Source of the DNA: Acidobacteriota bacterium
Lineage (GTDB): Bacteria > Acidobacteriota > Terriglobia > Bryobacterales > UBA6623
Assembly (NCBI GenBank): GCA_016125275.1
Contig: WGMB01000002.1
Span: 503,231-567,230, forward strand
Length of the DNA: 64,000 nt
Direction of reading: 5' to 3'
The notes under the pieces were generated by a model that saw only the letters and a program-made list of their open reading frames with translations, made no database searches and had not been told where the DNA came from. The translations under genes were made by a program, and so were the position numbers. Positions 1-21,631 of the stretch are shown piece by piece (position 1 is the stretch's first letter; each line of letters opens with the position of its first letter).

Positions 1-369
1 CTTGGCGCCGGTCAGCGCCGCCTCCATCTGCTGCTGCATCTGCGAGGCGAACATCTGGGCTTTGTCCTTGTCGCCGGGCAGCGGCTCGTTCACCGTCTTG
101 GCGGCCAGCGCTTCGGCGTCTTGGAGCGAATGCACCAGCGCGTTCACGTCATGCTCGTAGGTCTCCGCCCCGGCTAGGTCTTCCACGGCTGCGTCGTCGC
201 GCAGCAGCGTGGCTTGGCTCAGCGCATGGGCGAAGTCCTGCGTGAGCGCGTTGTGGTTGTTGATCACCACTTCATCAACGACTTCCACCGCCCTCGGCGC
301 CGCCGGCTTGCTCGAGCAAGCCGCCAGCAGCGCCGCCAAGGCCATGGCGCAATAGGTCATTCGGTTCAT
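1..369 (-). CDS. Putative lipoprotein, 3' end beyond the window
   Basis: The reading frame starts at ATG 369-367 and is open to the window edge (123 codons seen). The first 20 residues form a lipoprotein signal peptide: a short hydrophobic stretch followed by a LAAC-S lipobox with Cys near residue 18. The protein is therefore predicted to be lipid-anchored after signal peptidase II cleavage. The mature part is acidic and Gln/Ala-rich, probably alpha-helical, with a Met/Gln-rich run near the visible end. I recognise no family. It lies downstream of the ECF sigma gene on the same strand, separated by about 174 bp that contain a long inverted repeat, so co-regulation is possible but not shown. 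Confidence 0.6.
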   Translation of the reverse strand, partial: MNRMTYCAMALAALLAACSSKPAAPRAVEVVDEVVINNHNALTQDFAHALSQATLLRDDAAVEDLAGAETYEHDVNALVHSLQDAEALAAKTVNEPLPGDKDKAQMFASQMQQQMEAALTGAK

Positions 370-480
370 GGGGTTTTCTTTGCCTCCCTGCTCGATTCCA
401 TCGAGCTGTTTCTTGCATCGGACGGCCCCGCGGGGCGCCTCTAGCAAAGAGCTTAGAGACGGCCCCGGCGGGATCGTCCC

Positions 481-526
481 CGGACTTTCCCGGGGATGCG
501 GAAGCGAGGATTCCCGGGAAAGTCCG
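481..526. repeat. 14-bp perfect inverted repeat, 18-nt loop
   Basis: The arms CGGACTTTCCCGGG (481-494) and CCCGGGAAAGTCCG (513-526) are exact reverse complements. The repeat lies between the stop of the sigma factor gene and the start of the lipoprotein gene. No T-run follows on the minus strand, so a simple intrinsic terminator is not obvious. It could be an operator or an RNA hairpin. Confidence 0.6.
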
Positions 527-543
527 AGTCGGCGGCTTCGGGC

Positions 544-1098
544 TCAAGCCGCAACCTGGTCGACTCCTGCCGGCGCGGCGATCCGCGCCCGGCGCGCCGC
601 GACGACGGCGCCGAGCTTCGTCCGCGGATTCACCCGCTCACGCAGCTTCTTCTTCAGCCGGTGCAGCCGCACCCGCACGCCGATCGGGCTCAGCGAGCAG
701 CGCTTGCCGATCTCCTCGCAGGTGAGCCCGTAGACGGCTTGCAGCACCAGCACCTCCTGGTCGCCCGGCGACAGCCTGCCCAACAGCGCCGAGGCGTCCG
801 GGGCGGCGCCGTTCGGCGCGGGAACCGTCGGCAACACGTAGTCCTCCAGCGGCTCCAGCCGGCGCTGCTTGCGGACCTCGGTCAGCAGCAGGTTCAAGGC
901 GATCCGGTTGATCCAAACTTGCAGCGCGTCCAAGGCGTGGAGCTGCTTGCGCCGCTCCCATCCCCGGGCCCAGGCAGCCTGCGCCAGCTCCTCGGCCGTC
1001 GTCCCGCTCACTCCTCGCGAGGTGAGAAACCGCAGGGTCAAGGAATAGCCGCGCCCGTAAGCAGCGGCGAAGGTTTCAGAGTTCAACAGAGCGCTCAT
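544..1098 (-). CDS. ECF-type RNA polymerase sigma factor
   Basis: This is a 184-residue sigma-70-family protein of extracytoplasmic-function size. Residues 10-75 resemble region 2 (EELAQAAWARGWERR followed by a helix with VWINRIALN). Residues 105-155 form region 4, with a helix-turn-helix (EVLVLQAVYGLTCEEIGKRC, then VRVRLHRLKKKLRE). There is no region 3 and no large N-terminal domain. It would direct polymerase to a dedicated set of promoters. ATG 1098 was chosen because region 2 starts right after it; an upstream in-frame extension to 1224 is low-complexity and lacks family features. It is divergent from the histidine kinase gene. No anti-sigma factor gene is adjacent, so control may run through the neighbouring kinase/regulator genes; that link is inference. 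Confidence 0.88.
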   Translation of the reverse strand: MSALLNSETFAAAYGRGYSLTLRFLTSRGVSGTTAEELAQAAWARGWERRKQLHALDALQVWINRIALNLLLTEVRKQRRLEPLEDYVLPTVPAPNGAAPDASALLGRLSPGDQEVLVLQAVYGLTCEEIGKRCSLSPIGVRVRLHRLKKKLRERVNPRTKLGAVVAARRARIAAPAGVDQVAA

Positions 1099-1247
1099 AA
1101 AAGTGCCACCGCTCTCGAAGGTAGCGCCGCGGGGGCCGGTTGAAACCCCGTAGAATCCCGAGGAGCGGCCCACAATCTCACGAGGCCTACGTTTTTTGTA
1201 GCGGCCGTCGGTGTGGTCCCCCACCGTGCTCCCAGGGCGCCGCAGGC

Positions 1248-1253
1248 TATAAT
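1248..1253 (+). promoter_or_regulatory. -10 box TATAAT close to the kinase start
   Basis: A consensus TATAAT ends 12 nt before ATG 1266. The -35 region at 17-18 nt spacing is weak. A transcript starting 6-7 nt after the box would have a leader of only about 6 nt. Confidence 0.45.
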
Positions 1254-1265
1254 TCGGTTTCTCTG

Positions 1266-2738
1266 ATGACTACCGGCAGACCGAGTCGGCCGCCCGCGGT
1301 TCCCCCTCAGACCGCCGCGCCTGATATCGCCGGTTTGTTCGCCTCGTCTCCCTGTTTGTTGGTGGTGCTCGACCCGGCCGGGCGCATCGTCGAGTGGAAC
1401 GAAGCCTGCACGCTGCTCAGCGGCTACGAGCTCGACGAGGTGCGCGGGCGCCCCGTCTGGGACATCCTCGCTCCGGAAGGCCAAGCCGAGCGCTGGCGAG
1501 CCACCAAGCGCCGCATCTTCGAAGCCGGCGAGGAGCCCGCTCGCGACGGCCAGTGGGCCACCCGCTTCGGAGAGCGCCGTTTCGTGCGCTGGGCCGCCGC
1601 CGTCGACCGCACCGGCGCGCCGGAGGAGGCCCGCATGCTGGTCTCCGCGGTCGATCTGACCGACCTGTTCTCCACCCGCCAAGCCCTGGACCACTTGGCG
1701 GACCAGGAGCGCACGATCTTTGACCGCCTGCCCGTGTTGCTTTCGGTGCAGGACCCCGGCGGACGCTTCCTGTTCGGCAACCGGCGCTTTCGCGAGATCT
1801 TCCACTTCGAAGGCCCTCTCGACGGCAAGCTCCCCGCCGAGCTCTTTGGGCCCGAGCTCGCCGCCCGCTTCGAGAACCTGCAGGAGCTGGCCCGCGAGGG
1901 CTCGGCCCGTATCATCGAGGAGTCCTTCGACCTCGCCGGCCGCCGGCTCGAGCTGGTTACCTCGATCCTGCCGCTGTTCGACGACGACGGCCGCTTCGAG
2001 GGGGCCTGCGCGCTCTCCGACGACCGCACCGAGGCCCGCGCGACGGCCCGCCTGCTCGAGCTGCGCAGCCGCGAGGTCGCCGACCTCTCACAACGGCTCA
2101 TCGCCGCCGAGGAGGACGAGCGCCGCCGCATCGCCCGCGAGCTGCACGACGGCATCAACCAGGAGGTCGCCTCGCTGGCCGTCGAGCTGGGCATGCTGGC
2201 CGTCGACGAGTCCCCCCCCTCCGGCTCCGGCGGCTACTCCGTGCGCGAGCTCAGCGAGCGGGCCATGCAGATCTCCGACCAGGTTCGCCAGCTCTCGCAC
2301 CAGCTCCACCCCTCCACGCTCGAGACCCTGGGCCTGTCCGACGCACTGCGCTCCTTCGCCATGAGCGTCCGCAAACGGCCCGACGTCCACTTGGACTACT
2401 ACATCGATGACGTGCCGCCGATCCTTTCGCTGCTCGTCGCCACCTGCATCTACCGCATTGCCCAGGAGGCGGTGCACAACGCCGTCCGCCATGCCGAGGC
2501 CTCCGGCATCCGGCTCAGCCTGCGCCTGGAGGGCCAGGCCTTGCGGCTGGTGGTGGAGGACGACGGCAAGGGCTTCGACCCTGAAACCGTGCAGGCCGGC
2601 CTCGGCTTCGTGGGCATGCGCGAGCGCGCCCGCATGGCCAACGGCGCTCTCAGCATCCGCTCCGCGCCGGGCGGCGGTGCCCGCATCAGCTTCAAGACCT
2701 CTTTGGCGGACCAGCCGCCCACAGGAAACGCCTCATGA
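1266..2738 (+). CDS. PAS-domain sensor histidine kinase, NarL/DesK type
   Basis: This 490-residue soluble kinase has two PAS domains (about residues 18-130 and 145-260). A HisKA_3 dimerisation domain follows, with the motif ARELHDGINQEV and phospho-acceptor His294. It ends in a HATPase_c domain (about 385-480) with N-box YRIAQEAVHNAVRHA and G-box DDGKGFD. No transmembrane segment is visible, so it probably senses a cytoplasmic signal through PAS. ATG 1266 is preferred over an upstream start at 1140 because it directly follows a TATAAT box and the extension is unrelated sequence. Its stop overlaps the start of the response regulator by 4 bp (ATGA), so the two form a cognate pair. Confidence 0.93.
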   Translation: MTTGRPSRPPAVPPQTAAPDIAGLFASSPCLLVVLDPAGRIVEWNEACTLLSGYELDEVRGRPVWDILAPEGQAERWRATKRRIFEAGEEPARDGQWATRFGERRFVRWAAAVDRTGAPEEARMLVSAVDLTDLFSTRQALDHLADQERTIFDRLPVLLSVQDPGGRFLFGNRRFREIFHFEGPLDGKLPAELFGPELAARFENLQELAREGSARIIEESFDLAGRRLELVTSILPLFDDDGRFEGACALSDDRTEARATARLLELRSREVADLSQRLIAAEEDERRRIARELHDGINQEVASLAVELGMLAVDESPPSGSGGYSVRELSERAMQISDQVRQLSHQLHPSTLETLGLSDALRSFAMSVRKRPDVHLDYYIDDVPPILSLLVATCIYRIAQEAVHNAVRHAEASGIRLSLRLEGQALRLVVEDDGKGFDPETVQAGLGFVGMRERARMANGALSIRSAPGGGARISFKTSLADQPPTGNAS

Positions 2739-3370
2739 GCCTGCCCCGCGTCCTCATCGCCGACGATCACGCCATGTTCGCCGACGGCGTCCGTCGCTTG
2801 CTCGAAAAGGACTACGAGGTGGTGGGCTTCGCCGAGGACGGCCGCCAGTTGATGGAGGAGACCAAGCGCCTGCGCCCCGAGGTCGTCGTCGCCGACATCT
2901 CGATGCCCTCGCTCAACGGCATCGAGGCCGCCCGCCAGCTTCGCGCCGCTGACAAGCGCCTCAAGATCATCCTGCTCACCATGCACGAGGACGTCACCTT
3001 CGCCAGCCGCGCCTTCGAGGCAGGGGTGTCGGGCTACCTGCTCAAGCACTGCGCCGCCGACGAGCTGCTCACGGCCATGCGCGAGGTCCTCAACGGCCGC
3101 ACCTACGTCACCCCCCGCATTGCCGGCGACCTGCTGCAGGTGATGCAGCGGCGGGACGGCGAAGCCAAGGAAGTCCAGCTCACGCCCCGCGAGCGTGAGA
3201 TCCTGCAACTGCTCGCCGAGGGCAAGACCATGAAGGAAATCGCCGCCGTCCTCGACGTTTCCACCCGCACCGTCGAATTTCACAAGTACAATCTGATGGA
3301 AAAGACGGGCATGCACACCACCGCCGAGCTGACTCTCTACGCCGCGCGCCACGGATTGGTGGGGCTCTGA
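2735..3370 (+). CDS. NarL/FixJ-family response regulator
   Basis: This 211-residue protein has an N-terminal receiver domain with the acidic pair AD-D at residues 10-11, phospho-acceptor Asp54 (VVVADISMPS) and a conserved Lys in the motif YLLKH. A C-terminal LuxR-type helix-turn-helix follows (about 147-205; LTPREREILQLLAEGKTMKEIA). It should bind DNA as a dimer when phosphorylated by the kinase encoded immediately upstream, with which it overlaps by 4 bp. The length is normal for the family. Confidence 0.95.
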   Translation: MSLPRVLIADDHAMFADGVRRLLEKDYEVVGFAEDGRQLMEETKRLRPEVVVADISMPSLNGIEAARQLRAADKRLKIILLTMHEDVTFASRAFEAGVSGYLLKHCAADELLTAMREVLNGRTYVTPRIAGDLLQVMQRRDGEAKEVQLTPREREILQLLAEGKTMKEIAAVLDVSTRTVEFHKYNLMEKTGMHTTAELTLYAARHGLVGL

Positions 3371-3404
3371 GCCGGAGCCGCGGCGATTTCCCGGCTCAGA
3401 CCTC

Positions 3405-3428
3405 GGAACTTTCCGGGGGGTAATCGTC
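3405..3428 (+). promoter_or_regulatory. Candidate ECF-type promoter
   Basis: GGAAC (3405-3409) followed after 15 nt by CGTC (3425-3428) matches the general form of ECF sigma promoters (GGAAC-N15-17-CGTC). It lies 35 nt upstream of the receiver-only protein start, and the window's only ECF sigma gene is 2.3 kb away. That this sigma recognises it is inference. Confidence 0.35.
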
Positions 3429-3463
3429 GGTCGCCGGGCTCATGATGTGGCCAGGGAACGGGG

Positions 3464-3952
3464 ATGTCGGATGGGAGCTACAGCCCGGGGTCGCAGCAAG
3501 GCCCGGTTCCCCCTGTGAGGTGCGCCACGTCCAAACCCACAGCCGTCATCGCGGACGACCAAGCCTCGTTCAGCTCGATCGTGACCCGGCTCCTGCAAAG
3601 GGAGTTCGACATCCTGGCCGCGACCAGGGACGGCGTGGCCCTGTTGGCCGCCATCGAGCGGCACCATCCCGATCTCGTCGTCGCCGACATCAACATGCCG
3701 TTGATGAACGGCATTGACGCCGTCAGCCGCGCCCGCGCGGTCGGCAGCCTGGAGCGCGAAGCCTGCGAGCCCACCGCCGTGGTCTTTCTAACCAACCATG
3801 ACGACCAGATTCTGCTCGAGCGCGCCATCGCCGCCGGCGGCCTGGGCTACGTGCTCAAGCCGCGCGCGGCGGTGGATCTGCTGGTCGCCGTGGCCGCCGC
3901 GCGGCAGGGTCGCCGGTTCGTCTCGCCGCCGCTCGAAGATCCCGCCGCCTAG
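3464..3952 (+). CDS. Receiver-only response regulator with NarL-like linker
   Basis: This 162-residue protein has about 22 unstructured N-terminal residues and then a CheY-like receiver: ADDQ acidic pair near residue 31, phospho-acceptor Asp75 (VVADINMPLMNGIDAV) and a conserved Lys in YVLKPRAA. After the receiver the sequence continues like a NarL linker (GRRFVSPPL) but stops before any helix-turn-helix. It is therefore either a NarL regulator that lost its output domain or a dedicated phosphate-relay partner. It lies 93 bp downstream of the complete NarL regulator on the same strand. It could buffer phosphoryl groups from the same kinase, or partner the ECF sigma; neither is shown by sequence alone. 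Confidence 0.85.
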   Translation: MSDGSYSPGSQQGPVPPVRCATSKPTAVIADDQASFSSIVTRLLQREFDILAATRDGVALLAAIERHHPDLVVADINMPLMNGIDAVSRARAVGSLEREACEPTAVVFLTNHDDQILLERAIAAGGLGYVLKPRAAVDLLVAVAAARQGRRFVSPPLEDPAA

Positions 3953-4752
3953 CGGCTTTCCGGCGGCGTAGCCGTCCCCATCCAGTCCAGCCCCTCCCGC
4001 AGCGCCCGGAAGAACTCGGGACGCGCGTCGGGAAAGCTGTGGCCGCCCGCGCGCAGCCAGACCATCTTCTTGGGCTCGCGCGCCGCCGCCGCGATCGCCT
4101 GGAAGTCCTGCGGCGTCACCCAGCGGTCTTGATCCGATTGCAGGGCCAACAGCGGCAGCGGCGCGAGCGCGGCCACGTAGGGCTCGACGCTGAAATAGGG
4201 CCCGCCGGCCCGAAAGCCCGGCAGAAACTGCAAGTGATCCCACCAGCGCCAGCCCAGCACCCCCTCCAGCGGCAGCGCCACCGCCACCACGCCGGCCAGC
4301 AGCGGACGCATTCCCTCGCCCGCCCCCGCCAGCGCCGCCAGGGCCGCTCCGGCCGACCAGCCCATGCAGTACAGCGGCAGGCCGTCGCCGGCCTGTACGT
4401 CCAGCGCCAGCGCCCGAAAGTCCTCCTGGGCCTGCTCCGGCGTCAGCTCCGTCTCGCCGGTAAAGCAGCTCAGGTAGTGCTGCGAATCGAGCTGGTAGAC
4501 GTCAAAGCCCCAACCGGCGAGGCGCTCGGCGATGGCGTCGCCGAAGGGATGGAAGCCGCCGTCGCCGGAAGCCAGCAGCGCCTTGCGAGACGGTCCGGCC
4601 CCGACGCTGCCGCCCAGCATCCGCCGCAGCGTCTGCCGCCGGCCGCGGATCGGGATGTGAAACTCCTCGTGCGCAGCCGCCGGCGACAGCCCCCGCGCCG
4701 CCGCGCCCCCGGCCAGCAGGCTCAACGCGCGTCGGCGGGTGACCCTCTTCAC
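3949..4752 (-). CDS. AcvB/VirJ-like alpha/beta hydrolase, Tat-type signal
   Basis: A 267-residue protein from GTG 4752, with GGGGAGGG just upstream as ribosome binding site. The N-terminus (MKRVTRRRALSLLAGG) looks like a twin-arginine signal, giving a periplasmic enzyme. The nucleophile elbow is GWSAG with Ser133; a GDGGF block and a WGFDVYQLDSQHYL block match the VirJ/AcvB family. A C-terminal GGHSF supplies the likely catalytic His. In other bacteria AcvB-type enzymes hydrolyse lysyl-phosphatidylglycerol and are encoded next to the synthase, as here. Its start overlaps the stop of the flippase-like gene by 4 bp (GTGA). It is a divergent paralogue of the hydrolase at 5750-6529; why the operon needs two is unknown. 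Confidence 0.8.
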   Translation of the reverse strand: MKRVTRRRALSLLAGGAAARGLSPAAAHEEFHIPIRGRRQTLRRMLGGSVGAGPSRKALLASGDGGFHPFGDAIAERLAGWGFDVYQLDSQHYLSCFTGETELTPEQAQEDFRALALDVQAGDGLPLYCMGWSAGAALAALAGAGEGMRPLLAGVVAVALPLEGVLGWRWWDHLQFLPGFRAGGPYFSVEPYVAALAPLPLLALQSDQDRWVTPQDFQAIAAAAREPKKMVWLRAGGHSFPDARPEFFRALREGLDWMGTATPPESR

Positions 4753-5774
4753 GCAGCCCTCCCCGCCGCCTCGCCGGCGCGCCAAGCCTCCAGCTCCGCC
4801 CGCACCGTGCTCAGCCGCAACCCCGACCGCGCAAAACAGACCGAGCCGATCGCCCACAGCGGAATCGTCAGCACCAGGAACACCACGATCGAAAAGCCCG
4901 TCGCCGTGGTCTTCTCCACGCCGAAGATCGTCAGTCCCAGCACCGTCACCAACTGGTACGTGCCCAGGTTGCCCGGCCCGCCCGGCACGGCGTTGCCCAC
5001 GTGCTGCACCAGGAACGCGCCGATCACCTGCCAGAACGACAGCGGCAGGCCATACGACCGCGCCGCCCAATAGAACGCCAGCGCCTGAAAGCCCAGCACG
5101 CCCGACGACGCCAGCGCCGCCGGCAGCGCTCCGCGCGAGCCGCCGATGCGCCCCAGGCTCTCCCCCAGCGGCCGCAGCTTGCGCCAGAGCCAGTTCCGCG
5201 ACGGCGGCCGGCGCTCCCGGGCCCGGCGCTGCGACAGCACGGCCAGCCCCACCAGCGCCGCCAACCCGCCGAAAGCGATGCCCGCCAGCGCCGCCTCGGC
5301 GTCCACCAGGTAGCGCGGCAAAGGCGTCGCCAGCACCACCACGCCGAACGCCGCCGCCAGCCAGATCGCGTCGATAAAGCGCTCCACCACCACCGACGAC
5401 ACCACCGCCCCGTAGGCGCCGCCCAATTTTTGGGCGATCAAGTGGATGCGCAGCAGCTCCCCCATCCGCAACGGCAGAATCTCGTTCAGGTACAGCCCGG
5501 CGTAGGTCGCCTTGGTCGTCTCGAGCGGCCCCACATCGCCGGTGGACTCGAGCAGCCGATGCCAGCGCCAGCCCTGCGTCAGGTACGCCAGGATGTCGGT
5601 CAGCACGGCCAGCGCCAGCCACTCGGGCTGCATGCCCCGGACCTCGCTCGACAGGTCGGCCCAGGAGACGTCGTGGAACACCCAGATCAGCGAGCCGGCC
5701 GCCAGCAGGTAGCCGATCCAGGCCCTTCCGCCGGACGACGCGGCGGCCTTCAGCGGCTTTTCGCGAGCGCCCAC
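4749..5774 (-). CDS. Lysylphosphatidylglycerol synthase transmembrane (flippase-like) protein
   Basis: A 341-residue polytopic inner-membrane protein with about seven to eight hydrophobic segments. It belongs to the UPF0104/COG0392 family, the flippase half of MprF. Typical blocks include YLNEILPLRMGELLRIHL, VVSSVVVERFIDAIWLA and the conserved HVGNAVPGGPGNLGTYQ. GTG 5774 is chosen because AGAGGAG lies 7 nt upstream; this makes it overlap the preceding hydrolase gene by 25 bp. A CTG at 5753 is a weaker alternative. In classical MprF this domain is fused to the transferase; here it is a separate gene in the same operon, so it probably flips the aminoacylated lipid made by the 6526-8313 product. 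Confidence 0.85.
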   Translation of the reverse strand: MGAREKPLKAAASSGGRAWIGYLLAAGSLIWVFHDVSWADLSSEVRGMQPEWLALAVLTDILAYLTQGWRWHRLLESTGDVGPLETTKATYAGLYLNEILPLRMGELLRIHLIAQKLGGAYGAVVSSVVVERFIDAIWLAAAFGVVVLATPLPRYLVDAEAALAGIAFGGLAALVGLAVLSQRRARERRPPSRNWLWRKLRPLGESLGRIGGSRGALPAALASSGVLGFQALAFYWAARSYGLPLSFWQVIGAFLVQHVGNAVPGGPGNLGTYQLVTVLGLTIFGVEKTTATGFSIVVFLVLTIPLWAIGSVCFARSGLRLSTVRAELEAWRAGEAAGRAA

Positions 5775-6529
5775 TCGAAGGCTCCTCTCAGCTCCCGGTA
5801 GAAGCCCGCGTCGTTGCCGTCGAAGCGGTGGTTCTGGGCCGCGACCTCCACGAATCGCTTGGGCTCGCGCGCCGCGGCATACAGCTCGTCGGCTTCGGCC
5901 TTGCCCACGTACTGGTCGCCCGTCGAACGCAGAATCGCCAGCGGCGTCGGCGCCACCATCCCCAGGCGGTCCTTGACGGAGAACATCGGCTCCTTGGGCT
6001 CGCTCTGCAGCAGGATCGACAGGTTGTCCTTCATCCGCCAGGCCAGGGCGTTGCGGTCCGCCAGCCCGAACACCACCACGCCCGAGTACTTCGAGTCGCG
6101 CTGCGGGGCCGACGCCGCCAGCGCCGCCAAGCCGGCGCCTTCGGACCAGCCCGTCAGCAAGACCCTGCGACCGGGCGCCACCAGGTTCGAAACCGCCAGC
6201 AGGTCGTCCATGATCTGCTGCTCGGTCAGCGTCGTCGAGCCGGTGAACGAGGTCAGGTAGTTGTTGGTGTCCAGCCCGTATACGTCGTAGCCCCAGCCCG
6301 CCATCGTGCGGCCCATCTCGACGGCCTTGCCGGCCCAGCCGCGGTCGCCCGGCAGGAACAGCACCGCCGGCCGAGCCGCCGATCCCGCTTCCCCGGGGAG
6401 GTAGTAGATCTGTTGCTTGCGGCCCCGCAACTCGGGCTCGTTGCGGCCGGGATGCAGCGGCGCAGCCCCGGCCGCCGCCGCCAGGGCCCAGAGCATCGCC
6501 GCCGACACGCTCATTCGCCACGCACTCAT
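5750..6529 (-). CDS. AcvB/VirJ-like alpha/beta hydrolase, Sec signal
   Basis: A 259-residue periplasmic hydrolase. Residues 1-23 are a Sec signal peptide ending at an AGA-A site. The VirJ-type pattern is clear: PGDRGWAGKAVEMG, WGYDVYGLDTNNYLTSFTG, nucleophile GWSEG (Ser129) and a late QNHRFDG supplying the likely His. Family knowledge (AcvB, Pseudomonas PA0919) suggests hydrolysis of aminoacyl-phosphatidylglycerol, balancing the synthase encoded upstream. Its ATG overlaps the transferase stop by 4 bp (ATGA), so translation is coupled. It aligns block by block with the second hydrolase of the operon, which has a Tat-type rather than a Sec signal. Confidence 0.83.
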   Translation of the reverse strand: MSAWRMSVSAAMLWALAAAAGAAPLHPGRNEPELRGRKQQIYYLPGEAGSAARPAVLFLPGDRGWAGKAVEMGRTMAGWGYDVYGLDTNNYLTSFTGSTTLTEQQIMDDLLAVSNLVAPGRRVLLTGWSEGAGLAALAASAPQRDSKYSGVVVFGLADRNALAWRMKDNLSILLQSEPKEPMFSVKDRLGMVAPTPLAILRSTGDQYVGKAEADELYAAAREPKRFVEVAAQNHRFDGNDAGFYRELRGAFEWALAKSR

Positions 6530-8313
6530 CGCTTCCCCCGGTCGTGGAGCTCCATCACGTCCGCCAGCGCCCGGCCCACCAGGGGCAACCGCGCCAAGTC
6601 CCGGTAGACCAGATAGCGCGGCTCCCAAATCGAGGCGAACTTGGCCTTGTAGTCGCGCAGCCCGCGGTAGCTGAAGATAAAGCCCAGCCGCTGCATCAAG
6701 TAGTGGATCGCCTTCTCCTCCGGCCCCGGCGTTTCGTCGGCCTGAAAGCCGCTCATCGGAGCCATCCCGAGGTTGAAGCGCGTGAAGCCCCGGTCCTTCA
6801 TCGTCAGCATCACCTGCGTGAACAGATAATCCATCGTGCCCGGCGCCGAGTCCTGCCGGTGGCGCATCAGGTCGATGGTCGCCTCGCCGGGAAAATACGA
6901 CGGAATCACGTTCACGAACCCCATCATGCGGCCGTCAGCGGCGATCGCGGCGTAGATCGGCGTGCCCCGTACGTACTCGGCCTCGAACAGCCCCAGCGAG
7001 AAGGTGCGCTCACGGCGGCCGGGCAGGCTCAGCCAACTGTCGGAGACTTCGCGCGCCTGCTCCACCAGCGCGGGCGGCAGCGGCGGCTCGTAGCCCACGA
7101 ACGACACGCCGTCGCGCGTGAACTGGTTGACCTTGCTGCGCAGCTTGCTATGCGTCTTGCCCTGAAGGGAGAACTGCGTCAGGTCCACCACGGCGTCCTC
7201 GCCGACCTTGAGCTTGCGAAAGCCCAGCCGCTCGTACTGCGGCAACGACTCGCCGGGAACCTGGTAGAAGACCACTTCCCAGTCGTTGTCATGGCACATC
7301 GTCTCGAAGGCCGAGATCAGCGGCTCGATCTCCGCCGCGGGCCCCACCGGATCGCCCAGAACCACGGCGTAACCGGCGCCCACCTTGTAGGCCAGAAAGC
7401 TGCTCTGCGAAGGGGAGAAGAACAGCGCCTTGTCCGGCCAATGCTTGAAGAAGTCGAGCGACGAGCGCCCGTGCAGTTCCACGATCTCGGCCGCCAGCTC
7501 GCGCTCATGCGGCAGCGTGCGGTAGCGATAGACGACGGGTCGAAAGATGGCGAAAGCCGAATAGGCGATGGCGACCGCCGACAGCACCGAGAGCGAGTCG
7601 AGAAACCAAACCGCGTAGTGCGTCCGCGGAACCAGCGAGGCGTCGCCGACAAAGGTGAAGAAGCGCAGGCTCTGACGCAACGCTTCGGCCCAGGTGAAGT
7701 CGATCCCGAACTCCCGTCGGTCGAGCAGCCAGAACCCTGCGACGCCGTAAGCCACCGCCGAGCCGAGCGCCAGCGCCAAGCGCTTGGAGCCGCGCCCCAG
7801 GTCCGGCGTGGTGCTGCCCACCGTGAACAGCCCGCGCGAAGACCACAGCACCGCGGCCAGCACGGCGGCCACCAGCGCCTCCTCGTAGTCCAAGCCCTTG
7901 GTCAGGTGGAAGCCCACCGACGCCAGCGCCAGCGCCAAGCCGATCCGGTACGCCCGCCGCTTGCGCCGCCAAACGTTGATCGACAGCACCACCAGCCCCA
8001 GGCCGGCCAGCATCGCCGCGAACCGCGATACGTGCACGAACTCGATCGGAAACACCCTCTCGATCCGCGCCGCGCGTTCCGGCAGAGCCGGCCCGCCCAG
8101 CACCGAGTAGAGATTGACGAAGCCGCTACCCAGGCACAGCATGACCGCCAGCCAGAGCGTCGCCGGACGCCGCGACCGGCGAGGGGAGCGAGGAGGCTCG
8201 CCCGAGGCGGGCTCCGCGGGGGGCTCCGGCGAGGGCGCCTGGTCCTCGAGATGAATCTCGTCAGCGGAAAGAGTTGTGACGGCGACTCCTGTGTCGCCCG
8301 GGCGTTCGTCCAT
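6526..8313 (-). CDS. mprF: MprF-type phosphatidylglycerol aminoacyltransferase
   Basis: A 595-residue protein: a Pro/Arg-rich cytoplasmic N-terminus, about six transmembrane segments between residues 50 and 265, then a C-terminal DUF2156 acyltransferase domain (about 280-590; blocks YAVVLGDPVGP, EVVFYQVPGESLPQYERLGFRKLKVGEDAVVDL, FNLGMAPMSG). This domain transfers an amino acid, usually lysine or alanine, from tRNA to phosphatidylglycerol and so makes the membrane less negative. The long N-terminal flippase domain of canonical MprF is not in this protein but is encoded two genes downstream. ATG 8313 has GGAGAG 7 nt upstream. It is the first gene of a four-gene overlapping operon. The gene symbol rests on family resemblance; substrate amino acid is not known. 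Confidence 0.85.
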   Translation of the reverse strand: MDERPGDTGVAVTTLSADEIHLEDQAPSPEPPAEPASGEPPRSPRRSRRPATLWLAVMLCLGSGFVNLYSVLGGPALPERAARIERVFPIEFVHVSRFAAMLAGLGLVVLSINVWRRKRRAYRIGLALALASVGFHLTKGLDYEEALVAAVLAAVLWSSRGLFTVGSTTPDLGRGSKRLALALGSAVAYGVAGFWLLDRREFGIDFTWAEALRQSLRFFTFVGDASLVPRTHYAVWFLDSLSVLSAVAIAYSAFAIFRPVVYRYRTLPHERELAAEIVELHGRSSLDFFKHWPDKALFFSPSQSSFLAYKVGAGYAVVLGDPVGPAAEIEPLISAFETMCHDNDWEVVFYQVPGESLPQYERLGFRKLKVGEDAVVDLTQFSLQGKTHSKLRSKVNQFTRDGVSFVGYEPPLPPALVEQAREVSDSWLSLPGRRERTFSLGLFEAEYVRGTPIYAAIAADGRMMGFVNVIPSYFPGEATIDLMRHRQDSAPGTMDYLFTQVMLTMKDRGFTRFNLGMAPMSGFQADETPGPEEKAIHYLMQRLGFIFSYRGLRDYKAKFASIWEPRYLVYRDLARLPLVGRALADVMELHDRGKR

Positions 8314-8369
8314 CGAAGGGCTCTCCGATCGATTCCGCTCTCAGAATACAGATCGGCGCGCCCGGAAGG

Positions 8370-8389
8370 TCCTCGGACAGTTCCGAGGA
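8370..8389. repeat. 8-bp perfect inverted repeat upstream of the mprF-like operon
   Basis: TCCTCGGA (8370-8377), spacer CAGT, then TCCGAGGA (8382-8389). It lies about 57 bp upstream of ATG 8313, where an operator for this operon would be expected. The core resembles the CGGA/TCCG arms at 481-526 and 34126-34158. Confidence 0.45.
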
Positions 8390-8451
8390 ACAGCGCCACA
8401 AAGCGCCCGGGAGACGCATCAGCAACCGGAAATAGGAGGGAGGAGAGATGG

Positions 8452-8524
8452 AGCCACGAGTCGGACTCGAACCGACGACCTGCGGTTTACGAAACCGCTG
8501 CTCTACCAACTGAGCTATCGTGGC
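8452..8524 (-). tRNA. tRNA-Thr (anticodon CGU)
   Basis: Read on the minus strand from 8524: acceptor stem GCCACGA/TCGTGGC, D-arm GCTC...GAGC with AGTTGGTA loop, anticodon stem GCGGT/ACCGC with loop TTCGTAA (anticodon CGU, reading ACG), variable AGGTC, T-arm GTCGG/CCGAC with loop TTCGAGT. All stems pair without mismatch. The total is 73 nt including a U discriminator base. CCA is not encoded. Confidence 0.97.
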
Positions 8525-8569
8525 CTGCCAACTTTTGATGATATCACGAGCGGCGCCCTCGAACGTACA

Positions 8570-8605
8570 GGGCGGGACGGGCGCATCGGGCGCCGCGTCC
8601 CGCCC
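8570..8605 (-). terminator. GC-rich hairpin after the BACON-protein gene
   Basis: The ten-base arms at 8570-8579 and 8596-8605 are reverse complements, with an inner GGCGC/GCGCC stem. It lies 12 nt past the stop of the 8617-12459 gene. No clear T-tract follows, so function as an intrinsic terminator is uncertain. Confidence 0.4.
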
Positions 8606-8616
8606 CGTTCAGGCGG

Positions 8617-11600
8617 CTAGAAGACGAACTCCTTCGCCGGCGAACCCGCCGGGCACAGGGGTTCCGCGCCCACCGCCGCGCTCAGGGTGTTGCTGCGGTT
8701 GCCGGCCGGGTCCACCAGCGTGATGCTGACCGTTCCCTGCCCCGTCACCGCCAGATCCTGTTGGAAGGTCGGCACGGGACCCACCTGCAGCGAGCCGCTG
8801 GTTTGGCCGGGGAAGTTGAGCGGCCCGCCGGCCAGCACGAAGCGGCATTCGTTGTTGTTGAAGTTCGACTTCAGCGAGACCTCCAGCTTGGCGCTGGTGG
8901 CCTTGTTGCCCGTCCAGATGATGTTGCCCAGCGGCGCCTCGAAGTCGAAGCCCGCGCCCAGCACCAAGCCGGTGAAGCCTTCCACCCGGGCGTCGGCGAC
9001 GAAGTTCGTGATGCGCAACTGTGCCGCCGGCGGCGGGGCCGGCTCCAGCACTTCGAAGGTGGCGCCGTTGGAGCGGCCCGTCGGGGCCACGGCCGTCACC
9101 GTCCGTACGCCCGGGCTGGCCGTGGCGGCCAGCGTCGCCTCCGCCGTCAGCCGTACGGCTTGCGCGGCACCGCCGGGAGACAGCGAGACGACGCGGTTCA
9201 CCGGCCCGATCATCACGCCCGTCGAGGGGCTCATCTCGAGCGCGGTCACCGTGTCGAGGTTGTCGCCCATCACCTGCAGCGTGAAGGTTTGGCCCGCTCG
9301 CGCCGAGGTTGGCGAGATCGTCGTGATCCGCGGCGTCGCCGCCGGAGGTCCGGCGCCGTCGCCCACCGACACCGTCCGCAGGCTCAGCCCGCTCGCCAGG
9401 ATGAAGCCCCGGTCGAGCCCGCCGGCCGCGAACGTGGGATAGTCCGACAGCGGCAGCGAAGCCAAGCCCAGCAGGCCTCCCGCGCCCTCCAGGCTGGCCT
9501 CGGGACCGATCGACGGCAGGTTGGCCGTGGCCGAGGCGGGAACCGTGAATTGGCCGGCCGTGGCGCGCTCGAAGCAGACGAAGCCGCCGACGGTGTCAGT
9601 CGCAGCATCCGAGGCGGCGCCGGCGATCAGCACGACCTCGTTGGAGCCGCCGCCGCTCCAGGTAAGGGTGATCGGCTCGCCGCGACGAATCGCAGTGATC
9701 TGCTCCCGGTTGAGCCAGCGGATGGGCGGCGCCAGCGTGAAGCCGGTCGCGAAGGCCCCCACGTCCGGGCCGCCCGGGCCGGTGAGGCTGTAGGCTCCGC
9801 CGTCAAGGAACGGCGGCTGGGACTCGAAGCCCTCCAGCGGGAGTTGTCCGCCCAGCAAGCCCAGATACAGCCCGGGGTTGTCCTCGCCGGTCTCCATGGT
9901 CGCCATCCGCCCGCCGGGACCCGTCAACGTGAGAGCCGGGCCGGCGTTGAGGCCGACCGCGGGCAGCTCGCCGCCCGTCACCGAGCCGCCCGGGTTGGTC
10001 AGATCCAGGCTGCCCAACAGACCGGACAGGTCCTGGGTCTGGGCTAGCGACGAGCACGCGCCGATCGGCGGCGGAGCGCTGAGCATGTCGAACAACGGAT
10101 TGCCCACGAACGAGCCGGCCTCGACGAACAAGCCCAGTCCGAGGTCGAGCGTGGCGTCGAGCGGGTCGGACCCCTCGAGCGCGGCGTAGATGTTCGCCCG
10201 CGCCAGCACCACCGCGCCGCTGCGTCCGCCGTCGGCGGCGATGCCGAAGAACGGGACCTCGGTGGTCTCCGAGCAGCTTTGGCGGCCGGGGTCGACGGCG
10301 ATGGTCACGACGTTGCTCCACAGCGAGCCGGCCCGCACCTGCAACGGCACGTGGCAGCCTTGCGGGGTATCGGCGGCGAGCTCCGCGACAATCTCATCCA
10401 CGCCGGCGCAGCAGGGGGCGCGCCCCTTGTAGAGGATTCGGGCGGACTTGCCGCCGATCTGGACCTCCACGTCCACCGGCAGGTCGCCGACCGGCGGCGG
10501 CATGTCGTCGGCCTCGCCGATGGGGCCGAGCCCGGTGCCCCAGATGATGACGGCCTGGGCGGGGCTCGCGCTGGCGGTGGCCGAGTTCAAGGGCGTATCC
10601 GTCTGCGAGACGAAGTTCTGCACCACGCCGGGCCCGCGCCCGCCCTGCAGGCTGAAGACGCCGAAGGCGCTGTCCACCACCCGCGCGGCGATGGCCGCCT
10701 CACGGCCCTGGTAGCGCACCACGATCTCGCCCTCGCCCAGCGGGGCGTTCGACGGCAGAATGGCGTTGATCTGCGCGCTGGATACGAAGTTGAGGATGCA
10801 GGCCGTCTGCGAGCCGCCTTGCCGGATGAACACCTCCACGCCGGCCATGCTCTTCGGCAGCGGGAACGAGGTCGCCTGCTGCCAGGTCTCCGGCCCGATG
10901 CCCGCGCCATAGAGCGAGAAGAACGAGCCGCGCGCCAGACCGCCGCCGGGGGCCGTCTGCGGCAAGCCGCTGGCGGCGTTGAGGGCGCCGCCGAGCGTCG
11001 GCCCGCTCATCGAGGGCGCTCCGGCCTGCGTCACCGGGAAGCTCCGTCCGGCCACGGTCAGCGAACCGTTGCGCGGCGTCTCGGCGACGTTCGCGTCTAC
11101 GGCGTAGCGAACGGTCCCGCTGCCGGTCCCGCTCGCGCCGGAGACGATCGAGATCCACGTGACGTTGCTGACGGCGGTCCAGGCGCAGGAGGCGGAATTG
11201 GCCAGGATGTTGACGCTCAAGGTGGCTCCGGCGGCCGGAACCTCCGCGGAGACCGGCGCCAGCGTGTAGGAGCACGGCGCGCCGGCCGCCTGGGTGACCG
11301 TATGCGTCTGGCCGGCCACGGTGACCGTGCCGGTGCGGGCCGCGCCGGTCATGTTCGCCGCCACGCGGTACCCGACCGTCCCGCTGCCGGTCCCCGAGGC
11401 GCCGCTCTCGATGGTGATCCAGGAGGCGTTGCTGGCGGCCGTCCAGGCACAGGCCGAGGTGGTGTTCACCAGGATCAGCCCGGTTCCGCCGGCGCTGGCG
11501 ACCTCCGCGCTCTGCGGGCTAACGTAGTAGCTGCACGTCGGCGGCGGCTGGACGCCTCCGGCCGACAGCACGACGTTGTCGATCGCCGGACCGGCGTCGC

Positions 11601-12459
11601 CGCTCGTCAGGCTCTCGAACGAGATCGTGGTCGCGGCGCTCACGGCCGTAAAAGTCCACGTCCGGGTCTGCCAGCCCATGGCCGCTGTGGTGGTCGTGGC
11701 GTTGTTGTAGAACTTGAAGTCCTGCACCTGCCCTGCGGCGGAGACGCGCACGCGCTTCTCACCCGCGACGGCCGGGTTGCCGGCCAGGTCGAAGCTCAAG
11801 GTGTAGGTTTGGCCGACGACCGTTGCCGCGGCCTGCGCGATGGTTCCCGAGCGGCCGCCGTTGAGATCGATCGAGTACTGGCCGTCCGACGCCTTCCAGA
11901 CGCCGCCGACATAGTCCACCGCGCCCTGGGTCACCGACCAGCCGACGAGGAAGGGGTCTCCCAGCGAGACCACGCGCGTGGGCGCGAAGTTGCCGGGCTG
12001 CTCGAAGCTGCCGTTGCTGAGCGCGTTGGCTCGCACGGTGAAGCTCGTCTGCATCGGGACGCCGTCGAGCGCGCCCATGTCATTGACGGTGACGCCGACG
12101 CTCCAAACGCCCGGGTAGCCGGCGGCCGGCTGGCCGGCCAAGCCGATCGAGCTGGCAAAGCACCAGCCGCCCCCTTCCGGGACGCCTTCGAAATTGCTGA
12201 CCCGGTAGGTCTGGCCGTCGGGCCGCAGAAAGAGGATGCTGACGCGGTCTCCGGCCAGCAGGTCCTCAAAGATCGCGAAAACCGTGACGCGTGGATCCGT
12301 GCTCTGAAACTCCCGAATTTCGGTTCCGGGATCGCAGGGCGAATCCGTCGTCGCGTCACTGACGACGAGCGTCGTCAGCCGTCTTGCCGAAGCGGCGGTC
12401 GCCAGTACGAACAGCAACACGACGCTCCAGAAGACCGCCCGCAACAGTCTTCCCCGCAT
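8617..12459 (-). CDS. Large secreted protein with anchor, BACON and TIGR03437 domains
   Basis: A 1280-residue exported protein. Residues 1-25 are a Sec signal peptide. About 150-300 is a choice-of-anchor/DUF642-like beta-sandwich starting NGSFEQPGNF. Two BACON domains follow (about 310-395 and 395-480), each with the CAWTA...SWI pattern. A Solibacter-type TIGR03437 region (about 490-740) starts LNAASG and contains SAQINAILP. The remaining 500 residues are beta-rich, with an IPT-like segment (TPRITTISPTSARAGQTFTLQVMG). BACON domains usually bind glycans or mucin-like material, so a cell-surface adhesion or carbohydrate-binding role is likely; no catalytic motif is visible. ATG 12459 is preceded by GGAGG at a 6-nt spacing. 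A single-gene unit ending in a hairpin. Confidence 0.82.
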   Translation of the reverse strand: MRGRLLRAVFWSVVLLFVLATAASARRLTTLVVSDATTDSPCDPGTEIREFQSTDPRVTVFAIFEDLLAGDRVSILFLRPDGQTYRVSNFEGVPEGGGWCFASSIGLAGQPAAGYPGVWSVGVTVNDMGALDGVPMQTSFTVRANALSNGSFEQPGNFAPTRVVSLGDPFLVGWSVTQGAVDYVGGVWKASDGQYSIDLNGGRSGTIAQAAATVVGQTYTLSFDLAGNPAVAGEKRVRVSAAGQVQDFKFYNNATTTTAAMGWQTRTWTFTAVSAATTISFESLTSGDAGPAIDNVVLSAGGVQPPPTCSYYVSPQSAEVASAGGTGLILVNTTSACAWTAASNASWITIESGASGTGSGTVGYRVAANMTGAARTGTVTVAGQTHTVTQAAGAPCSYTLAPVSAEVPAAGATLSVNILANSASCAWTAVSNVTWISIVSGASGTGSGTVRYAVDANVAETPRNGSLTVAGRSFPVTQAGAPSMSGPTLGGALNAASGLPQTAPGGGLARGSFFSLYGAGIGPETWQQATSFPLPKSMAGVEVFIRQGGSQTACILNFVSSAQINAILPSNAPLGEGEIVVRYQGREAAIAARVVDSAFGVFSLQGGRGPGVVQNFVSQTDTPLNSATASASPAQAVIIWGTGLGPIGEADDMPPPVGDLPVDVEVQIGGKSARILYKGRAPCCAGVDEIVAELAADTPQGCHVPLQVRAGSLWSNVVTIAVDPGRQSCSETTEVPFFGIAADGGRSGAVVLARANIYAALEGSDPLDATLDLGLGLFVEAGSFVGNPLFDMLSAPPPIGACSSLAQTQDLSGLLGSLDLTNPGGSVTGGELPAVGLNAGPALTLTGPGGRMATMETGEDNPGLYLGLLGGQLPLEGFESQPPFLDGGAYSLTGPGGPDVGAFATGFTLAPPIRWLNREQITAIRRGEPITLTWSGGGSNEVVLIAGAASDAATDTVGGFVCFERATAGQFTVPASATANLPSIGPEASLEGAGGLLGLASLPLSDYPTFAAGGLDRGFILASGLSLRTVSVGDGAGPPAATPRITTISPTSARAGQTFTLQVMGDNLDTVTALEMSPSTGVMIGPVNRVVSLSPGGAAQAVRLTAEATLAATASPGVRTVTAVAPTGRSNGATFEVLEPAPPPAAQLRITNFVADARVEGFTGLVLGAGFDFEAPLGNIIWTGNKATSAKLEVSLKSNFNNNECRFVLAGGPLNFPGQTSGSLQVGPVPTFQQDLAVTGQGTVSITLVDPAGNRSNTLSAAVGAEPLCPAGSPAKEFVF

Positions 12460-12659
12460 GATGAACCTCCCCCCACGCCGAGGCGATACAGCCTCCCTTG
12501 CCCGGCCTGTTGGTTTGGTTGATCTTCGGTTGGTCTTGGGCCGGGCGCGCGTGTACCGGAAGATTCAGCAAGCGGGGCGCCAACTCGCAGCCCCGGCATT
12601 CGTGCGGAATTCCGGCGGGGGTGGGTGAAGCGACCCAGCCGAGGACGGCCGCGCGGGCG

Positions 12660-13424
12660 TCAGTTGACCCAGCCGCCGCCGTCGCCGCCGTCCCGCTTGC
12701 GCATGTAGACCTCGAACTTGCGGCGGGCCCGGCGCAGTCGCCACTGGCGGTAGGAGCCCTGCCAGTCGATGTTGAAGAATGTGGGCCGGCGGTAGAAGTA
12801 GATCGCCGCGAAAGCCATGCCGCCCAGGTGCGCGATGTGGCTGATGCGGCTGCCGCGCCCGTCAAAGGCTGACAGGAACGCGATGCCGCCGTAGACCGCC
12901 GCGATCACCCAGGCCGGAATCGCCACCGGGATCGGAAACAGGATCACCGGCGCGCGGGGGAACAGCAGAGCAAAGGTGAGGATGATGCCGTACAGGGCGC
13001 CCGAGTTGCCGATGGTCGCCGCGCTGAGGCTGTCGGCGGTGAGAAAGCGCAGCGCCACGTCGCACAGGCCCGCGCCCACGCCGCAGAAGAAGTAGAACTC
13101 GAGATAGCGCCGCGAACCCCAGGTCTGCTCGATCGTCCGGCCGAACATCCAGGTGCCGAGCATATTGAAGATGATGTGGCCGAAACCGAACGGATCGTGG
13201 ATGAACAGATACGTAAACGGCTGCCACAGGGCCCCCAGCGCGACCCAGCTCGGGATCAGGCTCAGCCCGTGGAACAGTCCCGTCAGCAAACCCAAATCGA
13301 GACGGACCGCCAGAGCGTAGACGACGAAGACCGAGAAGTTGATGATCAGCAACCACTTCGTCGCCCAAGGCGTCGCAAGGTCAAAGCCGAAGCCGGAGGG
13401 TCCGTAGCGTCGGGGAAGAGCCAT
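12660..13424 (-). CDS. Rhomboid-family intramembrane serine protease
   Basis: A 254-residue membrane protein with about six hydrophobic segments. The rhomboid catalytic Ser is in GNSGALYG (about residue 139) and the catalytic His in HIAHLGGMAFA (about 198). The L1-loop WR motif region and a GHIIFNMLGTWMFG segment with the conserved HxxxN-type pattern are present. It would cleave transmembrane helices in the inner membrane. The C-terminal 40 residues are a basic cytoplasmic tail ending in a Gly-rich stretch. A TATTCT box ends 8 nt before ATG 13424, suggesting a very short leader. It is divergent from the HELEH protein gene (82 bp apart); substrates are unknown. Confidence 0.93.
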   Translation of the reverse strand: MALPRRYGPSGFGFDLATPWATKWLLIINFSVFVVYALAVRLDLGLLTGLFHGLSLIPSWVALGALWQPFTYLFIHDPFGFGHIIFNMLGTWMFGRTIEQTWGSRRYLEFYFFCGVGAGLCDVALRFLTADSLSAATIGNSGALYGIILTFALLFPRAPVILFPIPVAIPAWVIAAVYGGIAFLSAFDGRGSRISHIAHLGGMAFAAIYFYRRPTFFNIDWQGSYRQWRLRRARRKFEVYMRKRDGGDGGGWVN

Positions 13425-13506
13425 CGGATTTGAGAATAGCAGGCCGGTCCGAGACGACCGCCGGCTGCTGGTATAAGCTAAGCGTCAAAACGGAGGGTCG
13501 GCTGGA

Positions 13507-14181
13507 ATGGTCCATCGTCGACAACACTACCGCCCGCGGAGTCTGTTTCTGGAGCTTCTCGACCGCTTCATCGGCCGGGGGCAGACACTGATCTCCGCCG
13601 GGGAGCGCCTGCCGCTGGTGCTGGCGAGCTACCCGCGCGGCCGCTTCTGGTTCGTGCAGACGCTGCAATCGGCGCTGCAGGTGACCTTTCCCTCGCTGCC
13701 CGCCTCGCTCCGCGCCGCCTATGCCGAAACGCTGGGGATGCTGCCTTCGGTGGTGGTGGCGGACCTGCGGCGCCGTAACGTCTGCTCCTGCCTGGGCCAC
13801 CACCATCCGTCGTTGGCGCTGAGCCCTCTGGCGCGGCGGCTGGCTTCGGAGATGGGCGGACGAGTGGGGGAGATCGACTTGGCCGTGGAGTCGATCCGCG
13901 CTTGGGCGCCGCTGCCGTTGTCGAGTCTGGCGGCCGAGCAGTTCGTGCCGCCGGCCGACGCGGATTCCCGCCGAACCTACGAGCAGGTGCGCTTCCACGC
14001 GGCGCTGCTGTCGGTCTTCCTGCATGAGCTGGAGCACTTGGCCTTCCCGCAGCGGGCCGAGCAGGAGATCCGGCGCCGCAGCGACGAGTTCTATCAGGCG
14101 GCCTTGCGGCATCAGCTCGCCGCCGAGTTCGGAGCCTCGTTCGGCATCAGCGCCTACGAGGATCTCGTCGCACAGGCCTGA
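13507..14181 (+). CDS. Unknown 224-residue protein with HExxH (HELEH) motif
   Basis: I do not recognise this family. It has no signal peptide or transmembrane segment. The notable motif is FLHELEHLAFP near residue 178, a zinc-protease-type HExxH in a predicted helix, followed by acidic residues (EQEIRRRSDEFY) that could supply a third ligand. An internal CSCLGHHHP cluster near residue 97 might also bind metal. The length suits small gluzincin-like or minimal metalloproteases, but the motif could also be structural. ATG 13507 is preceded by GGAGGG at about 9 nt. It is divergent from the rhomboid gene. Confidence 0.7.
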   Translation: MVHRRQHYRPRSLFLELLDRFIGRGQTLISAGERLPLVLASYPRGRFWFVQTLQSALQVTFPSLPASLRAAYAETLGMLPSVVVADLRRRNVCSCLGHHHPSLALSPLARRLASEMGGRVGEIDLAVESIRAWAPLPLSSLAAEQFVPPADADSRRTYEQVRFHAALLSVFLHELEHLAFPQRAEQEIRRRSDEFYQAALRHQLAAEFGASFGISAYEDLVAQA

Positions 14182-14182
14182 A

Positions 14183-14218
14183 CGAAAAAGCCCGGCGGCT
14201 GGGGTCTCAGCCGCCGGG
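14183..14218 (-). terminator. Intrinsic terminator of the first TonB receptor gene
   Basis: An 11-bp perfect stem, CCCGGCGGCTG (14191-14201) and CAGCCGCCGGG (14208-14218), with a 6-nt loop. On the minus strand it is followed by CTTTTTCG. It lies 45 bp past the receptor stop. Confidence 0.8.
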
Positions 14219-14262
14219 TCCAGAGAGTAGGAGACCGCCGAGGAAGCGGCGGATCTCTTACT

Positions 14263-17679: not shown

Positions 17680-17764
17680 TTCGATACCCCCAACTTCGGA
17701 ACTATCTATCGCGTGTTGGGCGCCACCCCTATCGTGGTTCCAAACGCCCACGCGACAGTGTGCT

Positions 17765-21404: not shown

Positions 21405-21631
21405 TAAATCGATACCCCCAATTTCCACACACTCAGGGGCGCCTACGCCCGCACGGCGCGGACCCCGCCACCCCGTCCGAATAAGGTTGGTGCAACAGAG
21501 GTTGGGGGAAAATACCCCTGGATCGGGATGACGCGGCGCCATTTTCGACGCCGCCCTAACCGACGAAGAACAGGCGAAGAGGCTACCGATCCTGGGAGGC
21601 CCCCGCCCGGGTGGGCGGCGAGGCCGAACGC

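Follow-up and report, generated by a model that had tools for sequence, protein, structure and literature searches.

In a 64,000-nucleotide stretch of DNA from an Acidobacteriota bacterium (UBA6623, Bryobacterales; GCA_016125275.1, WGMB01000002.1 positions 503,231-567,230), hereafter the window, four overlapping genes on the minus strand, A to D, may form a module that makes, flips and erases aminoacyl phospholipids (make-flip-erase), in which the two erasers are not equivalent. We give this reading a probability of roughly 0.65. Aminoacylated phospholipids set membrane charge and resistance to acid and peptides, and to our knowledge removal of the amino acid from them is known for a few hydrolases only. 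The product of gene A (6526-8313) would move an amino acid from aminoacyl-tRNA to phosphatidylglycerol (PG) in the inner leaflet, that of gene C (4749-5774) would carry the aminoacyl product to the periplasmic leaflet, and those of genes B (5750-6529) and D (3949-4752) would cleave the amino acid off there and regenerate PG. Tight gene overlaps would hold makers and erasers in proportion, with B as the core eraser and D as an older accessory paralog. With a gene of its own for the maker, the mover and each eraser, the module allows every step to be removed or exchanged independently.

The four genes follow each other in the order A, B, C, D. A (595 amino acids, aa) and B (259 aa) start with ATG, and C (341 aa) and D (267 aa) start with GTG. 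A and B share 4 bp in an ATGA stop/start (6526-6529), B and C share 25 bp (5750-5774) with AGAGGAG preceding the GTG start of C, and C and D share 4 bp in a GTGA stop/start (4749-4752), all on the minus strand, so the coupled series with overlaps of 4-25 bp in the original prediction is confirmed in its coordinates. When we surveyed the order Bryobacterales, PF09924, the synthase family of A, was found in 35 of 257 genomes. We counted 23 of these, among them the window, as MprF-like; their matches exceed 240 bits and their open frames are 545-720 aa long, a length at which none of the 23 synthases is fused to a flippase half; the other 12 genomes were not counted (best PF09924 matches of 116-130 bits in 11 of them, and 186 bits, with 107 to the split profile, in G494). 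B comes after A in all 23, A-B-C is present in 21, and A-B-C followed by a second hydrolase is present in five (the window, L019, L020, L021 and L025). The four-gene order thus recurs in relatives, as had been anticipated, and this recurrence excludes chance for the arrangement. C is missing from two genomes, L032 and L026, the contig of the latter ending about 1.2 kb past B. The contig end truncates C in L015, and the contigs of L015, L028 and L030 are too short to exclude D. In addition, the fragment L035 carries C-D at its contig end. A-B-C is a standing module in this order.

Gene A is an MprF-type synthase without the flippase half, and the predicted maker of aminoacyl-PG. By profile search its PF09924 domain scores 271 bits (E 1.2e-80), and it is the sole match of this family in the 7.55-Mb genome. 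A has the synthase domain with preceding membrane segments that marks MprF/LpiA proteins, and at 595 aa it has no fusion of flippase to synthase. It spans positions 313-838 of the 841 in the NCBIfam MprF model, with a score below the model cut-off, and positions 1-312 are missing, which agrees with the earlier description of a synthase without its flippase half. The PDB matches of A are MprF/LpiA structures (7f47, 6lvf and 4v36), and the DK, KxxE, DLMR and KxK motifs are kept. By motif spacing, D294-K295, K369/E372, D481/R484 and K556 of A would be equivalent to the set that includes K547, K621/E624, D731/R734 and K806 of Staphylococcus aureus MprF, reported as essential (PMC2774229). In 26 split-type synthase rows, the motif residues are kept in 25 or 26, except at position 372, where the window has Glu and 25 of the 26 have Asp. 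In the quick synthase tree, from which 21 of 115 rows were removed as near-duplicates or as short or fragmentary rows, the synthases of C-type operons form one clade of 36 rows with a support of 85; this clade includes L026 and L093, in which the sequence stretch available has no C. The same S. aureus paper reports that MprF minus its first eight membrane segments still produces lysyl-PG (Lys-PG), and that the hydrophobic part functions as a separate protein (PMC2774229). In that MprF(-8) plus MprF(-C) construct, as would be the case in the window, the synthase half works and does so also with a separate hydrophobic part, but there it was engineered in the laboratory, whereas the arrangement in the window is natural and its flippase-like partner only distantly related.

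The products of B and D are predicted hydrolases of the VirJ superfamily that lie outside the AcvB-type catalytic clade. Against PF06057 (VirJ), B scores 22.2 bits (cut-off 22) and D 19.5 bits, below the cut-off; against Hydrolase_4, B scores 25.7 bits (cut-off 27) and D 25.4 bits, also below it. B and D are 36% identical to each other. The relatives of these hydrolases fall into further groups, which we label U, U2 and V, and AcvB-like proteins. In an alignment of 48 rows, of which 10 are AcvB-like or V and the rest B, D or U, every row matches PF06057 at E<=1e-3, and the catalytic Ser, Asp and His are invariant (Ser129, Asp205 and His234 in window B; Ser133, Asp209 and His238 in window D). 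The best PDB profile match of this alignment is AcvB, with E 4.2e-26 for all rows and 2.4e-18 without the AcvB-like rows. AlphaFold2 models of B and D (mean predicted local distance difference test, pLDDT, 93 and 90) are both alpha/beta hydrolases, and their fold matches are many generic members of that fold with no specific relative. AcvB (9XHM/9XHN) is not among the fold matches listed, which carries no weight in either direction.

For export, B has a clear Sec-like hydrophobic segment at its N-terminus. Window D, which is probably exported, begins with an RRR stretch that is Tat-like (twin-arginine translocation) and has weak hydrophobicity (best 13-residue mean 1.22 vs 1.89 in B), and no N-terminal segment was detected in it by the 19-residue hydrophobicity scan. 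In the four closest relatives, D begins with a plain hydrophobic stretch that has no twin arginine, so the contrast of a Sec signal in B with a Tat signal in D, which was correct for B and weakly so for D in the window, is not conserved, and a conserved Sec/Tat division between the two was ruled out. Because B and the relatives of D have export-like N-termini, action of the hydrolases on the inner leaflet, and with it the proposed action on both leaflets, is unlikely, with the reservation that the window D signal is weak.

To place the hydrolases, we built a careful tree from 66 of 116 rows, leaving out AcvB N-domains, group w and redundant rows. This tree is unrooted and does not contain the reference AcvB sequence, and its AcvB-type rows were named by their two-domain build and motifs. 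Window D and the D of four other Bryobacterales genomes form one clade (support 100/99). Window B joins the B of genus g235, which belongs to another family of the order (83/89), and all B rows together with the second hydrolase of L020 and one orphan form another clade (98/96). A 100/100 branch has AcvB-type catalytic domains and U2 on one side, and B and D on the other. The label AcvB/VirJ-like therefore holds for B and D at the level of the superfamily, with AcvB as their best structural profile match, and does not hold for membership in the AcvB clade, outside which both fall; a position outside the clade is one of the outcomes that the original prediction had named as refuting it. Since B and D lie in separate clades, they are old paralogs and D is no recent copy of B; the doubling of the hydrolase described in the original prediction is not new to this locus, and a recent tandem duplication was ruled out by the hydrolase trees. 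The second hydrolase of L020, which sits in the B clade, was gained separately.

Whether two old paralogs do different work can be weighed first against simple redundancy, in which D would raise the amount of one and the same aminoacyl-PG hydrolase activity, a possibility considered in the literature for octopine Agrobacterium, where VirJ accompanies AcvB. Both enzymes keep the catalytic Ser, Asp and His; 18 of the 23 order genomes with A-B showed no D (three of these have the short contigs named above), so B alone seems sufficient there; and the VirJ/AcvB case is a precedent in the account of PMC13135905. These observations are opposed by the age of the two clades, by consistent differences between them at the active site and by the recurrence of unlike hydrolase pairs at other loci, and we hold redundancy to be a tenable but minority explanation. 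With respect to non-equivalent erasers, B would be the core eraser because it accompanies A wherever the order has an MprF-like synthase, and D, with its differently charged active site, most likely strips another aminoacyl lipid or serves under different conditions.

The active-site differences were read against AcvB, for which Ser336 is reported as catalytic, likely in a dyad with His433 (PMC13197417). The docking model of that paper places Asp271 and Asp340 close to the alpha-amino group of the substrate and Asp370 close to its epsilon-amino group, and changing any of the three reduces activity (PMC13197417). The residue counts below cover 28 B rows and five D rows, the second hydrolase of L020 being excluded from D as a member of the B clade. 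The equivalents of Ser336 and His433, together with a conserved Asp that we infer from the fold to be the third catalytic residue, are present in 28/28 B and 5/5 D, and the Asp271 equivalent, in the GDGGW motif, is present in 27/28 B and 5/5 D (the motif reads GDRGW in window B and GDGGF in window D). The two groups differ from each other at four further places. The Ser269 equivalent is Pro or Cys in all 28 B (Pro in 25) and Ser in all five D; the residue following the conserved Asp is acidic in 26 of the 28 B and Arg or His in all D, although window B has Gln there, against the trend; the Glu of the PxEP motif is found in 24 of the 28 B and is Gly in every D; and the residue preceding the His is Asn or Asp in every B and Gly in every D. 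Because these differences are consistent, it is plausible that B and D act on different substrates.

The equivalents of Asp340 and Asp370 are acidic in none of the 28 B and none of the five D. Lysyl specificity is therefore not supported for either enzyme, and the proposed split into a lysyl and an alanyl hydrolase finds no footing in these positions. Among 10 AcvB-type C-domains, position 340 is acidic in 10 and position 370 in four, which makes 340 the firmer criterion of the two. In the U hydrolases, sisters of B in other architectures (nine beside fused MprF and two beside intermediate-size synthases), position 340 is Gly in 11/11, and position 370, the lysine-reading position of AcvB, is Glu in 10/11, which, compared with its lack of acid in B and D, may mean different aminoacyl lipids. 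A simple lysine-position rule is opposed by the U2 and AcvB-type hydrolases beside fused MprF, which carry Ser or mixed residues there. The loss of these amino-acid-reading aspartates, the generic alpha/beta hydrolase matches and the marginal VirJ scores would also fit hydrolases whose substrate is not the lipid made by A but, for example, another periplasmic ester or acyl lipid, in an operon that merely co-regulates envelope functions. Such a function is improbable in our judgement, as B adjoins the synthase in 23/23 order genomes, sister hydrolases stand beside fused MprF elsewhere, and AcvB is the nearest solved relative by profile.

Unlike hydrolases are also paired at other loci. Two separate hydrolase genes within 4 kb were found at 12 of 42 fused-MprF loci, and all 12 are among the 30 loci from Acidobacteriota. 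According to the tree, the pairs are made up of different paralogs, with U and a two-domain AcvB in L048 and U2 and a two-domain AcvB in seven loci; the further pairings are U with V (L066 and L067) and two AcvB-like single domains (L038 and L040). The A-H-H-C order (H, hydrolase) of L078 is one hydrolase in two reading frames and was not counted as two, and the order listed for L065 is a coordinate artefact, its hydrolase lying upstream. We tentatively propose a more specific version of the module, which we regard as possible rather than probable: one synthase would be served by a recruited UPF0104-type flippase and by two periplasmic erasers from a sister group of VirJ with different specificities, reading non-lysyl lipids that are neutral or otherwise modified. 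The repeated pairing of unlike erasers with one maker in Acidobacteriota would then mean that at least two aminoacyl-lipid species are tuned independently.

Gene C encodes a free-standing PF03706 (LPG_synthase_TM / UPF0104-type) membrane protein, a predicted flippase or scramblase. It matches PF03706 with 144.8 bits (cut-off 33.4), and the NCBIfam MprF model gives it 33 bits only. The C genes of split operons, the window included, form one clade with a support of 100. PF03706/UPF0104 proteins are described as predicted flippases in PMC5898192. The original prediction of a split MprF implied that C derives from the N-terminal half of the MprF that also gave rise to A, and a true gene fission of this kind could explain why A begins just past the MprF flippase half, at model position 313. 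When we compared profiles, however, C was not recognisable as an MprF N-terminal domain: against its profile, 42 MprF N-domains reached at most 10.2 bits (median 0.6), compared with 24-142 bits in 30 of 31 free-standing PF03706 loci (a favourable sample, taken among the best-scoring PF03706 matches; L154 gave no match). The profile-profile score of C was 332 with free-standing PF03706 and 58 with the MprF flippase half, and a PDB search with the C profile returned no match at all. In the quick tree C is nested among free-standing PF03706 proteins. On the other hand, the approximately unbiased (AU) test did not reject a tree that joins C to the MprF N-domains (p 0.67), and the likelihood of this tree is above that of the quick tree. 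An ancient fission is therefore possible as the origin of C; the AU test is undecided between fission and recruitment, and similarity alone favoured recruitment. Taken with the profile scores, we consider fission unlikely, and the split MprF label suits A better than C, which is far nearer to free-standing PF03706.

Several points weigh against the make-flip-erase reading with non-equivalent erasers. Both B and D lack the Asp340 and Asp370 equivalents, so their recognition of the substrate may differ from that of AcvB. D falls under the VirJ cut-off and B barely reaches it, and both also resemble generic alpha/beta hydrolases; the export signal of window D is weak. The five D rows effectively represent two lineages, since a single genus contributes four of them. 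Finally, the role of C as an aminoacyl-PG flippase is predicted and unproven.

Compared with known systems, the operon appears to belong with LpiA/AcvB, in what looks like a new arrangement whose hydrolases come from a sister subfamily and are not AcvB members. As in LpiA/AcvB of Agrobacterium and rhizobia (AtvA), where AcvB is reported to bind LpiA (PMC13197417), an aminoacyl-PG synthase is followed by a VirJ-superfamily hydrolase with the catalytic Ser and His kept. In contrast to that system, in which LpiA is fused to its own flippase and AcvB is one two-domain protein, the window has a free flippase-like gene and two single-domain hydrolases of another clade without Asp340 and Asp370. VirJ of the octopine Ti plasmid, which hydrolyses Lys-PG according to PMC13135905, is single-domain and stands beside chromosomal AcvB, so there too a cell has two hydrolases of the same superfamily; unlike B and D, which share one operon and belong to old separate clades, VirJ is plasmid-borne, separately regulated and, in the account of PMC13135905, probably derived from AcvB. 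The alanyl-PG (Ala-PG) synthase of Pseudomonas aeruginosa and PA0919 are likewise a maker-eraser pair, with Thr or Ser instead of Asp at position 370 (PMC13197417), but PA0919 keeps Asp340 and its synthase is a fused MprF. For the flippase, the closest relatives of C by profile are free-standing UPF0104/COG0392 proteins (AglD C-domain-like), again predicted flippases in PMC5898192, from which C differs in forming its own clade tied to aminoacyl-PG synthase operons. The flippase domain of Rhizobium tropici MprF is reported to accept Lys-PG and Ala-PG alike (PMC8131360). In the open-access literature we found no account of this operon, of any Acidobacteriota synthase accompanied by a free flippase gene, or of an operon that combines one synthase with two hydrolases, which is weak evidence because subscription papers were mostly outside the search.

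The history of the module crosses family boundaries. The A genes of the window and genus g235, both with A-B-C-D, group together (support 98 with L061, one g235 row being kept), and so do their C genes (99 with L061); L061 comes from a further family and has A directly followed by C, without B. PF09924 is absent from all 17 other genomes in the family to which the window belongs. The shared history across families, together with the absence of the synthase from 17/17 close relatives, suggests that A-B-C-D was transferred as a unit between families, with loss elsewhere as an admissible alternative.

Across the phylum, PF09924 was found in 111 of 396 genomes. Of 43 matches above 200 bits, 40 neighbourhoods were read, all except G368:C142, G269:C25 and G379:C98, and 78 loci were added from relatives in named genomes (best 80 of 113). 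The operon variants are A-C, either by itself or with a two-domain AcvB-like hydrolase, A-B, and, in L080, a doubled A. In the last (5914-13777), tandem split synthases are followed by B and C and, about 1 kb further on, by a two-domain AcvB-like gene, a predicted doubled maker with two erasers. The synthases of L072 and L073 are intermediate in size (737-757 aa) and stand with a single hydrolase but without C, possibly a third architecture. C genes occur mainly in Acidobacteriota, with a few in metagenome-assembled genomes (MAGs) labelled Aminicenantes, Dadabacteria, Krumholzibacteriia and Planctomycetia. The B and C of L149, from a MAG titled Planctomycetia, are almost identical to those of L029 in G477, which would indicate contamination or a very recent transfer, and L105 (CALQCC020000008.1), with A-B-C, comes from a record whose title, a Bordetella parapertussis MAG, looks wrong.

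Around the operon, a promoter/terminator scan found no promoter-like site on the operon strand, and its terminators scored below the shuffled mean. In an Rfam search of window positions 1-16000, the sole match was a tRNA, tRNA-Thr(CGT) at 8449-8524 on the minus strand, 135 bp upstream of A on the same strand. The idea of a dedicated tRNA serving the tRNA-using enzyme A was ruled out, as none of 29 related loci has a tRNA and tRNA-Thr, 93-100% identical, is present in 16 of the 17 other family genomes, all without the synthase (the 17th, G017, gave weak matches only). A genomic island at the tRNA was also considered. The seven of these 17 relatives that were read share no neighbour gene of the window (11 proteins searched) and, one 18-bp match apart, no flanking DNA beyond the tRNA, so an empty site for an island could not be shown, and a search for an island boundary by the tRNA 3'-end pattern gave no match. 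On the other side, a sigma-70-like factor, a PAS histidine kinase, a LuxR-type response regulator and a lone receiver domain adjoin the operon (544-3952), and the ends of the lone receiver gene (3464-3952, plus strand) and of D (3949) meet tail to tail, sharing 4 bp. Beyond the tRNA, a secreted-looking protein of 1280 aa with DUF642, BACON and TIG domains is encoded at 8617-12459 (minus strand). Further on, two tandem large genes of 1162 and 1183 aa (14263-17751 and 17991-21542, minus strand) look very similar by eye, and we take them to resemble carboxypeptidase-regulatory/TonB-receptor-like proteins.

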